Source: Haloplanus salinarum
Lineage (GTDB): Archaea; Halobacteriota; Halobacteria; Halobacteriales; Haloferacaceae
NCBI RefSeq assembly: GCF_024498175.1
Contig: NZ_CP101823.1
Span: 434,001-498,000 of the forward strand
Direction of reading: 5' to 3'
Length of the DNA: 64,000 nucleotides
Shown piece by piece: positions 42,260 through 47,822 of this stretch; position 1 is the stretch's first letter; each line of letters opens with the position of its first letter. The translations under genes and the position numbers were made by a program. Below the pieces are notes generated by a model, which did no database searches, was not told the origin of the DNA, and worked only from the letters and a program-made list of their open reading frames with translations.

Positions 42260-42946
42260 TGTTCAGATTAGTTGATTCCATGCGAAGGCGAACGATCTAA
42301 GCCACTCGTTTGCAGTTTCTGCTTCGGCGTTGCTGAAACAGTTCGAGAAACTGGTAGTTCTGCGTTTTACTTCACGAAAACACGTTCAACGCTGTTCCGA
42401 TTTCCATGGCGTTCGTATCTGAAATCGAGGCCGTGGCGACGGCACGCGTCGTTCAGGGGTTTCGCACCGTCGACGAGAAACACCGCGTCGTCAACGTCGT
42501 GTTTCTCGCGTAATTCGCGAAAGAACGAGTAAGCGATAACGTTCGTTCTCGTCGGTTCGAGCTTTGTATGGAGTAATTCGTTCGTCTCCGGATCGACCGC
42601 GGCGTACAGCCAATACTGCTCATCGTTGAGTCGGATCACCGTTTCATCAACCGCAACGTGATCCGGGCATCGACCCTCTTCGGGCTGTAGATCGGCTTTG
42701 TGGACCCAGTTGTGAACGGTAGATCGTGCCCTCTCAACACCGAATATTTCAAGAATAGAGACAGTATTCGAAAGTGATAGTCCAGCAAGATGGAGCTGAA
42801 TACTGAGCTTCATCAACAGCCGCGGTGTTGCTTCTCGTTCCACAAAACCTAACTCGATTCGGTCGATACACCCGTTGAGGCTAGCGTTTTCGGGCATGAA
42901 CAACTTAGAAAACGCTACGCCTCACCTTTCAATCCTTATCTGAACA
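42260..42946 (-). mobile_element. IS6-type insertion element, about 690 bp
   Basis: An AT-rich block between GC-rich genes, bounded by imperfect inverted ends: TGTTCAGATTAG at 42260 and, read inward from 42946, TGTTCAGATAAG. A single transposase gene fills it. An 11-bp direct repeat, GCCGGAGCGGT, lies outside both ends (42247-42257 and 42952-42962); the family usually duplicates 8 bp, so part of this may be chance. The element entered the spacer between the CDP-alcohol phosphatidyltransferase stop and the aMBF1 promoter. Confidence 0.8.
42264..42903 (-). pseudogene. IS6-family transposase, frameshifted
   Basis: From the ATG at 42903 the protein reads 178 residues with an N-terminal HTH (STVHNWVHKADL) and the DDE catalytic triad parts VAVDETVI, FLVDGAKPL and NSVERVF. 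It then stops at VFVK. One base added after the TTTTC run near 42376 restores the expected C-terminus in another frame (EVKRRTTSFSNCF, then ANEWLRSF and NQLI, stop near 42270). All three catalytic acids precede the break, but the lost tail is conserved in the family, so the enzyme is probably inactive. Confidence 0.8.
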
Positions 42947-43571: not shown

Positions 43572-44074
43572 AGGTAGTCGATGAAGTCCACGTCACCCGC
43601 GCTGGGTTCCCGGTTGCCGGCGATCACCGCCTCGATTTCGGCCGCCACCTCGGCTGGCGTCCGGTCGGTCGTATCGACCTCGTAGACGTTTTCGACCCCG
43701 TGACGCTCGACGGCCTCGGAGAGGATCACGTCGAGGGCCTCGCTCTCCGCGTTCTCCGTGGCCTCCTCCTCGCTCGCGCCCCGTTCGCGTAGGCGCTCTT
43801 CCAGCGTGTCGGGGTGACACCTGAGCACGACCACCCGGTCGGCGTCGAGGTGGTGGGCCAGGTGTGACTCGGCGACGCCGGTCCAGTCGCCGACCGCCTC
43901 GCGGACCGCCTCTAAGTCGGCCACCAGCGAGTCGCGGTCCGCGTCGCGCTCGGTCCACAGCCCAGCCTCCCGGATCAGGTCGTTGAGGTGGATCACCGTG
44001 ACGTCGAGTAGCGTCGTCGCCGACGTCTTGCCGGTGCCGGGGGTCCCGGTGACGGCGACGCGTCCCTCGCTCAT
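43568..44074 (-). CDS. AK6/Fap7-type adenylate kinase family NTPase
   Basis: A 168-residue P-loop kinase with Walker A TGTPGTGKTS near residue 9 and a RCHPDTLEERLRERG LID-like segment, matching the archaeal/eukaryotic AK6 (Fap7) group. Members phosphorylate AMP and act in small-subunit ribosome maturation. The ATG at 44074 overlaps hisC by 4 nt, and its stop overlaps the CDP-alcohol transferase start by 4 nt, so the three genes are translationally chained. This conserved archaeal order is not obviously linked by function. Confidence 0.9.
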   Translation of the reverse strand: MSEGRVAVTGTPGTGKTSATTLLDVTVIHLNDLIREAGLWTERDADRDSLVADLEAVREAVGDWTGVAESHLAHHLDADRVVVLRCHPDTLEERLRERGASEEEATENAESEALDVILSEAVERHGVENVYEVDTTDRTPAEVAAEIEAVIAGNREPSAGDVDFIDYL

Positions 44075-45153
44075 GCCCGCACCTCGGTCAGCACGTCGTT
44101 GATGATCTCGACGGCCCGTCGGGTCCCCTCGCGGGTGCCACACGAGACGCGGACACATTCGGGCAGGCCGAAACTCGAACAGTCGCGGACGATGACGCCC
44201 CGCCGCTGGGTGGCGTCGGCGACGGCGCCGGCATCACCCACCTCCGCGAGGACGAAGTTCCCGCCGCTCTCCCAGGTCGGCGCGTCGAGGTGGTCGCGGA
44301 GGTAGTCCCGCGCCCAGCGGGCCGTCTCGACGGTCCGTTCGAGGTGCTCGTCGTCGTCGAGGGCGGCCAGCGCGGCCCGGCACCCGACCTCGCTGGCGGC
44401 GAAGGGGGTGTTGACCCGAGCGTAGGCCTCGCCCCACGCCTCGGGGACGACGCCGTAGCCGACCCGCAGGCCCGCGAGGCCGTAGGCCTTCGAGAACGTC
44501 CGCGTGACCGCGAGGTTGTCGTGGGTGTCGAGGAGGTCGATGGCCGAGGGGGCGTCGGTGTACTCGGCGTAAGCCTCGTCGACGACCAACAGCGTGTGGT
44601 CCTCGACCGCCTCCGCGAGGTCGACGATGGCCGCCCGCGAGAACTCGGCGCCCGTCGGGTTGTGGGGCGTGGTGAGGTAGACGATCCGTTCGCCGTCGTA
44701 GGCGTCGAGGACGGTGTCGGGGGTCTGGGCGAAGTCGTCGGCCTTCGCGAGGTCGTAGGTCGCCACCTCGCCGTGGTGATAGCGGGCGCTCATCCGGTAG
44801 TACGAGAAGCCGGGTTCGGGCGCGAGCACCCGGTCGCCGGGGTCGAGGAAGGCCCGGGAGAGGTAATCGAGCGCGCCGTCGGCGCCCGGCGTCACCCAGA
44901 CCTGTTCGGGCGTGACGTCCCAGCGAGCCGCCAGTTTCTCCGCGAGGTCGGTGTGGGACGCCTTGGGGTAGACGCCGACGTTCGGCGCCGTCTCGCGGAT
45001 CGCCTCGACGGCCGCCGGACTCGGGCCGTGGGGGTTCTCGTTCGAGGAGAGCTTCGTGAGGTCGTCGGGGTCCATCCCCAACTCGCGGGCGACCTCCTCG
45101 GCGCCGCGACCGGGGACGTACGGCGAGAGATCGGAGAGATCCCGTGGTTGCAT
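44071..45153 (-). CDS. hisC: Histidinol-phosphate aminotransferase
   Basis: A 360-residue fold-type I PLP enzyme. It has the N-terminal LSSNENPHGPSPAAVEAI, the aspartate region VVDEAYAEYTD, the Schiff-base lysine in TFSKAYGLAGLRVGY and the C-terminal SVRVSCGT-like segment (CVRVSCGTREG). It makes histidinol phosphate from imidazole-acetol phosphate and glutamate in histidine synthesis. The ATG at 45153 gives MQPRDLSDLSPYVPG, the family start. It is coupled to the AK6 gene and lies 56 nt after the tail-tube-like pair. Confidence 0.93.
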   Translation of the reverse strand: MQPRDLSDLSPYVPGRGAEEVARELGMDPDDLTKLSSNENPHGPSPAAVEAIRETAPNVGVYPKASHTDLAEKLAARWDVTPEQVWVTPGADGALDYLSRAFLDPGDRVLAPEPGFSYYRMSARYHHGEVATYDLAKADDFAQTPDTVLDAYDGERIVYLTTPHNPTGAEFSRAAIVDLAEAVEDHTLLVVDEAYAEYTDAPSAIDLLDTHDNLAVTRTFSKAYGLAGLRVGYGVVPEAWGEAYARVNTPFAASEVGCRAALAALDDDEHLERTVETARWARDYLRDHLDAPTWESGGNFVLAEVGDAGAVADATQRRGVIVRDCSSFGLPECVRVSCGTREGTRRAVEIINDVLTEVRA

Positions 45154-45209
45154 GGTCGGAGGATGCGGGCGCCGACGCTTAAGCGTGGCCAATGGGTCGC
45201 GCGAACGGG

Positions 45210-45629
45210 TCAGCGATCGCCCCCCTCGATCGCCTCGACGCCGTCGTGGACCACTTCCAGCGTCTCCGTCGCGACGGCCGGACCCTCGGCCACCAACTCG
45301 GGGCCCCGCCACCGAACCGGTGTGGCGCCGAGACAGCGCCACCCCCGTCCGCGGGTTCCCGAAGCGTCGAGGAGATACACACTGACGTCCCGCGGCTCGA
45401 TCGCTCCCTCGATCCAGTCGCGGAGCCAGGTCCACAGCCGTCGGTCGTCGGTGACCCCGCGCCGGAGCGAGAGGTGTGGAGACGCGGCGTCGTGCGGGTC
45501 GGCGTCCCCGTCCCCGGTCGCGACGCGCACCGACAACCCCCGGATCTCGCTGAACCCCATCGGTTCCAGGCCGTCGATCGCCACGTCGAAGCGGTGGCGC
45601 GTGTAGGGGTCGACGGGGCGGTCGCTCAT
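45210..45629 (-). CDS. Phage-tail-tube-like protein (T4 gp19 / eCIS tube family)
   Basis: A 139-residue protein of the conserved phage-tail family that forms the inner tube of contractile tails and extracellular injection systems. Typical features are RHRFDVAIDGLEPMGFSEIRG near the start (beta-strand with the GF(S)E turn), LSLRRGVTDDRRLWTWLRDW in the middle, and a final ATETLEVVHDG strand. It overlaps the neighbouring tube-like gene by 4 nt. No sheath, baseplate or ATPase gene is present nearby, so the pair is orphaned or has another function. Confidence 0.8.
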   Translation of the reverse strand: MSDRPVDPYTRHRFDVAIDGLEPMGFSEIRGLSVRVATGDGDADPHDAASPHLSLRRGVTDDRRLWTWLRDWIEGAIEPRDVSVYLLDASGTRGRGWRCLGATPVRWRGPELVAEGPAVATETLEVVHDGVEAIEGGDR

Positions 45630-46135
45630 CGCTCCGTCGGGCGGGTCGCGTTCCCCCTGCCCCGGCGCCGGCCGCCGTCCGTCTCCTCCCCGCCGCCGTC
45701 GACCCGTTCGTACGCCTCGAACACGACTTCGAGCGCCTCGACGGCGACCGCCGACCGCTCGGCGTCGAGGGTCGGCGCCTCGTACCGGGACGGCCACGCG
45801 CGGCCGAACTCCCACCGTGCGCCCGGGGCCCCCTCGCGGTCGAGGAGGACGACCGCGACGGAGCGACGCGCCGTCTCCACCTTCCCGTCCTCGACGAGGC
45901 GCCGCCATTCGGCGAGCGCGACGGAGTCCTCGGTGACCCCCGACTCCAGGACCAACGGCCGGAACTCGTTCAGCCCGGCGAGTTTCCGAGCCGTCGGCGG
46001 ATCGTTTCCCTCGCGGTACTCGACGACGCCCGTCGACGCCGACGGGAGGCGACAGACGTTGAACCCCGCTTTGGCGATCCCGTCGATCTCGACGAGAAAC
46101 CGGAACGAGCGAAACGGCCCGTGTCGGTCAGGCAT
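45626..46135 (-). CDS. Phage-tail-tube-like protein, second paralogue
   Basis: A 169-residue relative of the downstream gene. It starts FRSFRFLVEIDGIAKAGF, carries VVEYREGND and LNEFRPLVLESGVTEDSVAL in the tube-fold positions, then RRSVAVVLLDREG and VAVEALEVVFEAYERV, and ends in an Arg/Gly-rich basic tail. The ATG at 46135 is supported by a strong GGAGG Shine-Dalgarno a few nucleotides upstream. Its stop overlaps the next start (ATGA). In contractile injection systems, two or three tube paralogues commonly sit side by side, as here. Confidence 0.8.
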   Translation of the reverse strand: MPDRHGPFRSFRFLVEIDGIAKAGFNVCRLPSASTGVVEYREGNDPPTARKLAGLNEFRPLVLESGVTEDSVALAEWRRLVEDGKVETARRSVAVVLLDREGAPGARWEFGRAWPSRYEAPTLDAERSAVAVEALEVVFEAYERVDGGGEETDGGRRRGRGNATRPTER

Positions 46136-46226
46136 CGGCCCTCCGTGCGCTCCCGTGAGTGTTGGTATCGGTAGACATACGACAGCCACCCACACGTTCA
46201 CTGCTATTGAAGCTTTCCGCGAGGCC

Positions 46227-47822
46227 TCAGAGCCACCCGTCGAGGCGGTCGGCGAGCCGACAGGAGAGCGCCGCGATGGTGAGCGTCGGGTTCATCGCGC
46301 CGCCGGTGGGGAAGACGCTGCTGCCGGCGATCCAGAGGTTGTCGAGGTCGTGGGTCCGGCAGTCGGGCGCGACGACGCTCTCGGCGGGGTCGGTGCCCAT
46401 CCGCGTCGTCCCCATGTGGTGGAAGGCGGGGCCGGTCGCGTCGGGACCGACCACCCAGTCGATTTCGGCGTCGAGTTCCTCCAGGATGGCCACCTGCACC
46501 TCGTTCGCCCGCTCGATGGCCGCGCGGGTCCGCTGGCCGATCGACCACCGGACCTCGGGGACCGGGTTGCCGTGGTCGTCGGTCGTCGAGCGGTCGAGCG
46601 TGATCCGGTTCTCGGCGTCGGGGAACTGCTCGACGAGGCCGCCGACCGCGAGGTGGGTGCCGTAGGATTCCCGCAGCGATTCGAGGAGGGCGTCGCCCCA
46701 GTCGTCGGCGTCGAGCGCCTGGGTCACGGGCGAGGGGCCGGCGTAGTTGAGGAACTCCAGTTTGACGCCCGGGAGGGGGTCCGTACCGTCGTAGAGGGCG
46801 TGACACTCGGTGGTGTTGAACCCCACGTGGTTCTGCCGAGTTTCGCGGTCGATCCGGCCGCCGGCGCCGGCGAAGCAGTGGTCCATGAAGTACCGCCCGA
46901 CGAGACCCGAGGAGTTGGCGAGGCCGTCGGGGTAGGACTCGGAGGCCGAGAGCAGGAGGAGGCGGACGTTCTCGACGCCGCCGCAGGCGAGGACGACCGC
47001 CCGGGCGTCCTGTCGGTGTTCGGTCCCGTCCGGGGTGGCGTAGACGGCGGCCTCGACACGCTCCCCGGCGTCGTCGTGGACGAGTCGCTGAACCGGCGCG
47101 CGGTCGATCACCCGGGCGCCGGCCGCCTCCGCGCGGGCGACGTGGCGCTCGGCGGTGTATTTCGCGCCCGAGGGACAGACCGGCTTGCAGGTGCCGTAGC
47201 CGACACACGCCGACGCGCCGTCGTAGGGTTCGGAGTTGCGGGCGTTCGGCACCGAGTGGGTGGGGAGGCCGAGCGACTCACAGGCCTCGGCGAAGATGGC
47301 GTCGCTGTGGGAGGGCGGGAACGCGGGGAGGGGGAACGGCTCCTCGCGGGGCGGGGCGAAGGGGTTGTCGTCGGCGCCGGCCACGCCGAGTTCGCGTTCG
47401 GCCTCGGCGTAGTGCGGGCGCAGGTCGGCGTAGTCGAGGGGCCAGTCGGCCCCGACGCCGTGTCGGGACCGCATCGCGAAGTCGCGTTCGTGCAGGCGCA
47501 TCACCATCCCCTGCCAGTGGAGCGTCGACCCGCCGACGCCTTTCACCCGCGCAGCGTTCAGCGGGTAGTCCCGCGGCCCCTCGGTGGCGTAGGCGTCGCG
47601 CTCCCCGCCCATGCCCCAGAGCCCCTCGACGCCGGGTCGCAGGTGGGCGTCGAGTTGCTCCTCGCGGTCCGCGAGGTCGAACCGCGGTCCGGCGTCGAGG
47701 ACGACGACGTCGTGGCCCGCCTCCGCGAGGCGGGCGGCGACGATGGCGCCCGCGGGGCCGGCGCCGACGACGCAGGCGTCCGCGCGCGGCGCTGGCGTTC
47801 GATCGGCCGCCGCGTCAGCCAT
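46227..47822 (-). CDS. GMC-family FAD oxidoreductase (gluconate/alcohol dehydrogenase large-subunit type)
   Basis: A 531-residue flavoprotein. The FAD-binding GAGPAGAIVAARLAEAG starts at residue ~20; GVGGSTLHWQGMVMRL and a Cys-rich CVGYGTCKPVCPSGAK follow. The C-terminal FHHMGTTRMG and NPTLTIAALSCRLADRL complete the GMC pattern with the catalytic His region. It should oxidise an alcohol or polyol, passing electrons to a membrane acceptor. It has no signal peptide of its own. Its start lies 8 nt inside the small-subunit gene, which has a Tat signal, so export as a pair is likely. Confidence 0.9.
   Translation of the reverse strand: MADAAADRTPAPRADACVVGAGPAGAIVAARLAEAGHDVVVLDAGPRFDLADREEQLDAHLRPGVEGLWGMGGERDAYATEGPRDYPLNAARVKGVGGSTLHWQGMVMRLHERDFAMRSRHGVGADWPLDYADLRPHYAEAERELGVAGADDNPFAPPREEPFPLPAFPPSHSDAIFAEACESLGLPTHSVPNARNSEPYDGASACVGYGTCKPVCPSGAKYTAERHVARAEAAGARVIDRAPVQRLVHDDAGERVEAAVYATPDGTEHRQDARAVVLACGGVENVRLLLLSASESYPDGLANSSGLVGRYFMDHCFAGAGGRIDRETRQNHVGFNTTECHALYDGTDPLPGVKLEFLNYAGPSPVTQALDADDWGDALLESLRESYGTHLAVGGLVEQFPDAENRITLDRSTTDDHGNPVPEVRWSIGQRTRAAIERANEVQVAILEELDAEIDWVVGPDATGPAFHHMGTTRMGTDPAESVVAPDCRTHDLDNLWIAGSSVFPTGGAMNPTLTIAALSCRLADRLDGWL

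Follow-up and report, generated by a model that had tools for sequence, protein, structure and literature searches.

The window, a 64,000-nucleotide stretch of the Haloplanus salinarum genome, carries two genes beside hisC whose products resemble the inner-tube proteins of contractile injection systems (CIS). CIS tubes have so far been studied as parts of firing machines. The initial annotation offered three explanations, namely a remnant CIS, a tube assembled with parts encoded elsewhere, and a domesticated tube of unknown use. The last of these is the best fit to the results below.

Family and fold of the two proteins

The two genes, here called tube1 and tube2, overlap by ATGA, and both reading frames are intact. 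A GGAGG motif lies 5' of tube1, so the intact pair with a strong ribosome-binding site that had been annotated is borne out, as is its position just upstream of hisC on the same strand (Table 1). Both products score above the curated cut-offs of PF06841 (1.5e-36 for tube1 and 3.1e-24 for tube2) and TIGR02241 (1.7e-36 and 5.4e-22). Tube1 is nearest to CIS1 (CIS1_fam, 3.9e-32) and tube2 to CIS5 (CIS5_fam, 1.3e-21), each under the corresponding equivalog cut-off. Sequence matches to PDB tube proteins (9e-14 and 3e-07, respectively) were to the injection-system tubes of Anabaena, Algoriphagus, Streptomyces, PVC and AFP; like the profile matches, they lie far above chance and uphold the annotated tube pattern.

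AlphaFold2 monomers of tube1 and tube2 had pLDDT values of 73 and 75, and the top Foldseek match of both models was AlgoCIS chain 7aeb_Y, with E values of 1.2e-06 and 1.1e-08 and modest TM-scores. The hairpin of tube1 is poorly predicted or undefined in its monomer model. A different fold, which the initial annotation had named as evidence against its reading, was not found for either single protein. We conclude from sequence profiles and models that tube1 and tube2 are proteins of the CIS inner-tube family with a predicted tube fold.

Table 1. Features of the tube locus, in positions of the window.
Feature	Position	Strand	Description
tube1	45626..46135	minus	169 aa, ATG start; Cis1-like inner-tube protein with short disordered C-terminal tail
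tube2	45210..45629	minus	139 aa; Cis5-like tube adaptor or initiator protein
hisC	44071-45153	minus	56 bp downstream of the pair, same strand
GMC-type oxidoreductase gene	46227-47822		other flank of the pair; preceded by a gluconate-2-dehydrogenase-subunit-3-like gene
leader mini-ORF	46128..46178	minus	MSTDTNTHGSARRADA; ATG start; stop overlaps the tube1 start by 8 nt
promoter-like element of the tube unit	46204..46218	minus	GGAAAGCTTCAATAG; about 33 nt upstream of the ATG of the leader
promoter-like element of hisC	45176..45187	minus	CACGCTTAAGCG; between tube2 and hisC, at the downstream border of the tube unit
transposase-like frame (recognized by eye)	42367-42903	minus	178 aa, TTG start; between the adenylate-kinase-like/hisC cluster and further genes

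Distribution, missing machine parts and descent

Across the whole H. salinarum genome (3.45 Mb, one contig), PF06841 matches tube1 and tube2 and no other tube gene. Profiles for six other CIS parts (sheath, LysM tail protein, terminator, hub, gp25 and Baseplate_J) found none in this genome, where PF04984 (sheath) also returned nothing over its cut-off. The same holds for other genomes with the pair: the haloarchaeal sheath profile matched 0/25 carriers, and the profiles for the LysM tail protein, the terminator and gp25 (Pfam) each matched none of 28, while every one of these profiles detected its target in 5/5 CIS-positive controls. The hub profile likewise found 5/5 controls and no carrier above noise among the 28; its single match, in G032 (E=0.009), is at noise level. 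Baseplate_J was missing from 26 of the 28 carriers. The other two each have one copy away from the pair (G076:C1:2321531-2321944 and G116:C44:20005-20412); both genomes are without gp25 or a CIS sheath, and these genes are probably of prophage origin. No CIS AAA ATPase was present among the genes neighbouring the pair in any carrier. The annotated lack of a nearby sheath, baseplate or spike is therefore correct and, for the parts covered by the profile searches, extends to the whole genome. These searches contradict a tube assembled with parts encoded elsewhere, and for the six part families searched a complete CIS acting in trans was rejected.

Tube matches occurred in 48/170 genomes of the family, at loci that are either complete CIS clusters, stand-alone adjacent pairs or, in a few cases, lone tube-like genes. 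The tube genes of complete clusters generally have two small genes between them, whereas the stand-alone genes are adjacent. The stand-alone pair is present in 25 of the 170 genomes and in at least 28 haloarchaeal genomes of two families overall, always with both genes together. As the initial annotation had thought worth examining, it is conserved beside hisC in relatives, adjoining this gene in eight genomes of the H. salinarum genus. Pairs of genus g21 (Halorubrum) lie between a threonine-dehydratase-like gene and a helix-hairpin-helix gene, one locus at this site being recorded as Halobellus captivus. Haloferax has a third site, the pairs of G168 and G007 lie elsewhere, and G411 as well as G290 and G350, from the other family, hold the pair at further different sites. 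The site is thus stable within a genus and unrelated between genera, the flanking genes are housekeeping genes, and the lack of related neighbours between genera indicates that only the pair itself travels. None of the relatives examined has the pair at the edge of a complete tail cluster, and we rejected the idea that a cluster intact in relatives is simply broken here. The transposase-like frame of Table 1 is apparently absent at the syntenic loci of relatives. Stand-alone pairs in bacteria were considered and set aside: bacterial matches of the tube2 profile are mostly beside sheath or LysM genes; two bacterial loci (L098 and L107) have neither within the DNA examined.

In phylogenetic trees, the tube1 proteins of the pair form a single clade (100/98) among CIS tube1 proteins, as do its tube2 proteins (100/99) among CIS tube2 proteins. 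Both clades persist in an enlarged tree that takes in the second family and further CIS tubes (100/99 and 98/95), with bootstrap values not fully settled. Since each protein forms a single clade among CIS tubes, one ancient haloarchaeal CIS probably lost all but its tube module. The simplest reading of these sequences is that the rest of the CIS was lost once and that the pair was then co-inherited, with relocation or transfer.

Four genomes of the H. salinarum genus are without the pair, and in each the GMC gene directly precedes hisC. No significant tube fragment was detected by tblastn at these empty sites (E above 0.3), and no genus member examined retains one gene of the pair. Because the pairless genomes are dispersed over a tree built from ten neighbouring genes, they call for about four independent, clean losses of the whole pair; regain of the pair at the identical site is less likely than repeated loss. 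The pair is dispensable, as these losses show, and their recurrence suggests that its benefit is conditional. Where the pair is kept, median dN/dS values for tube1 and tube2 are 0.34 and 0.30 in the H. salinarum genus, 0.20 and 0.32 in Haloferax, and 0.24 and 0.30 in Halorubrum; the value for hisC, 0.19, is below those of both tube genes. By this sequence measure, purifying selection on the pair continues in several genera. The proposal of a remnant CIS consequently stands in part: the clades among CIS tubes uphold the origin, while an old, constrained unit in many genera speaks against decay.

The two proteins differ in what they have kept. In contractile tails, rings stack through a beta-hairpin that every tube subunit extends to the following ring (PMC11915804, PMC10966104). 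The YREG-type hairpin motif is retained in 25/25 tube1 proteins of the pair, compared with 16/17 CIS tube1 proteins, and H. salinarum tube1 keeps the YREG..RKL stacking motif. The corresponding [EDR]EGG motif is present in 15/17 CIS tube2 proteins and in 0/24 tube2 proteins of the pair, where a variable disordered stretch, shortened in the tube2 of the window, replaces it. The tube2 hairpin would face the hub, and loss of hub and spike predicts the pattern seen, with the motif lost from tube2 and the stacking element kept in tube1. Disordered C-terminal tails are found on tube1 of the H. salinarum genus and of Haloferax, whereas CIS tube1 proteins are without them.

The tube genes as a predicted expression unit

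The element GGAAAGCTTCAATAG is the putative promoter of the tube unit: its CTTCAA/TTTCAA core is common to 8/8 carriers in the genus and was not seen at the four empty sites. The element CACGCTTAAGCG of hisC is conserved both in carriers and in the four pairless genomes. Because it separates the pair from hisC and pairless relatives have it too, the pair is probably outside the hisC operon, and its membership of that operon was rejected.

A leader mini-ORF, MSTDTNTHGSARRADA, precedes tube1. Leader ORFs are present at 8/8 loci of the H. salinarum genus, 6/7 of g21, 6/6 of Haloferax and 2/2 of g66, with the stop codon -2 to +11 nt from the tube1 ATG across loci; upstream of tube1 in G168, G007 and G411 none was found. 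In two genera, each with five distinct lengths, the leader varies between species by multiples of three only, a pattern expected by chance at about 0.012 per genus if the lengths are independent. The peptide is not conserved, with a pN/pS of about 1 in every frame in Haloferax; a functional peptide was rejected on this ground, and only the reading frame of the leader seems to matter. Termination-reinitiation is among the mechanisms described for archaea in PMC6728339, and a leader with preserved frame and unconserved peptide fits translation of the leader followed by this process. The leader thus probably couples translation to tube1. A leader of this kind, with its frame kept and its peptide unconstrained, may be a general device for haloarchaeal genes with 5' leaders.

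Proposed role, rival explanations and related systems

The sequences show that an ancestral Cis1-like tube and its Cis5-like adaptor became a two-gene unit, parted from every other CIS part tested. We propose that the unit would be transcribed from its own promoter, the leader would hand ribosomes to tube1 by termination-reinitiation, and the ATGA overlap would couple tube2 translation to that of tube1. Tube1 is predicted to form hexameric rings, stackable by the conserved hairpin, onto which a ring of tube2 would dock one-sidedly. Having lost its hairpin, tube2 could grip neither hub, spike nor a further ring and would end or cap the stack. The resulting short ring or tube would be cytoplasmic; inspection by eye revealed no signal peptide on either tube protein. 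Neither contraction nor injection is expected of the tube, since neither sheath nor spike is encoded. Its lumen may hold or shield a client molecule, by analogy with Hcp, the T6SS tube protein that does so for effectors. We give this account of a domesticated stand-alone tube module, including the ring or tube product, about an even chance, and rate its evolutionary half above the whole. A single domestication in haloarchaea, turning a CIS tube and its adaptor into a self-standing ring or nanotube that does not contract and serves the cell in some task other than injection, is put forward more tentatively, at somewhat under even probability.

The CIS-tube origin, four or more clean losses within the genus, a fast-evolving tube2 that has lost its hairpin motif, and dN/dS values exceeding that of hisC would also suit a slowly decaying relic, in which the pair, now without function, is all that is left of an injection system in lineages yet to delete it. 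We regard this as unlikely, since the pair is intact in 28 genomes of two families with constraint in three genera, the identical two genes are kept in the genus with no single-gene remnants, and the promoter-like site and the leader frame are preserved. Preservation of the inter-ring hairpin motif in every tube1 protein is hard to explain without stacking, which makes it improbable that the proteins are decoys, i.e., soluble, non-assembling binders or subunits that disturb the assembly of foreign CIS or virus tails. Tube1 tails that are long and disordered in several genera, together with disordered inserts within tube2, do favor such a function, as does the finding that 0/170 genomes hold both the pair (25 genomes) and a CIS (17 genomes), at a chance of 0.058 with kinship ignored. 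We rejected this mutual exclusion as evidence, as it is too weak and confounded by kinship, and phage records contain no tube of the pair's family.

An injection machine that is unrecognized, or has diverged strongly, could instead be encoded at another place in the genome and use the pair as its tube. Every tube motif is retained in tube1, wholly unrelated replacements would escape profile searches, and two other carriers have a Baseplate_J gene; nonetheless, the other five CIS parts are missing from the carriers searched and strongly detected in controls, tube2 is without the motif expected to contact the hub, and the neighbours of the pair differ wholly between genera. We consider such a machine improbable. 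Descent from a provirus tail rather than from a CIS would agree with PF06841 being named after a phage tube and with phrog_4542 matching both tube1 and tube2. No pair-type tube was found in 50,697 phage records or in viral contigs, the proteins are nested among CIS tubes, and the neighbours are housekeeping genes with no phage genes nearby; a phage origin is very improbable and was rejected.

If the domesticated tube module is real, it would be the tail-tube counterpart of what encapsulins, which are domesticated viral-type capsid shells, are for capsids. In both, a self-assembling virus-like structural protein is kept without the rest of the particle, assembly of the pair being predicted; unlike encapsulins, the pair is a tail tube rather than a capsid and has no linked cargo gene. 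Haloarchaeal CIS are known from clusters in 41/350 genomes, and one is a functional archaeal T6SS (PMC11566945); the laboratory strain Haloferax volcanii is reported in that paper to lack a CIS cluster. The pair shares its tube family with these systems (Halogeometricum borinquense, Haloferax elongans; PMC11566945) and branches among them. Unlike them, it is without sheath, hub, LysM protein, terminator and gp25, its tube genes are adjacent rather than parted by two small genes, its tube2 hairpin motif is lost, and it has its own leader ORF. Orphan Hcp islands of bacteria, as outlined in PMC13098142, likewise place tube genes away from the full cluster; there, hcp occurs with vgrG and/or PAAR and belongs to another system, whereas carriers of the pair have no sheath in the whole genome and keep an adaptor ring with the tube. 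A term search of the text of PMC11566945 found no mention of stand-alone tube pairs, and the open-access literature searched yielded no description of stand-alone pairs or of domesticated or orphan tubes.

Conservation of a tube and adaptor in 28 or more genomes without the tested firing parts would imply that tail tubes can be useful alone, and a product that assembles and works without the machine would be a new kind of system. Tube-gene counts alone overestimate the archaea with injection systems. Stand-alone use is directly testable, since the named carriers include several Haloferax and Halorubrum species that can be cultured, among them Haloferax gibbonsii and H. prahovense.

The few lone tube-like genes are distinct from the pair. 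One, at L066:9545-10087 with a counterpart in L065 (G127 and G130, genus g21), branches apart from it, and the N-terminus of the L066 protein, MLPTIGRRTVLQTIGVAGALGLASSAAEA, reads by eye as a twin-arginine (Tat) signal peptide. Judged by sequence, this gene apparently encodes an exported stand-alone tube protein and marks a second separation of tube from machine. Two others, L068:9453-9911 and L069:9843-10286, are on the tube2 side of the tree and always have a conserved gene of 135-137 aa 3' of them. A further one, L067:9656-10132 (G091), is flanked by two similar, oppositely oriented transposase-like genes, with which it possibly forms a mobile unit.
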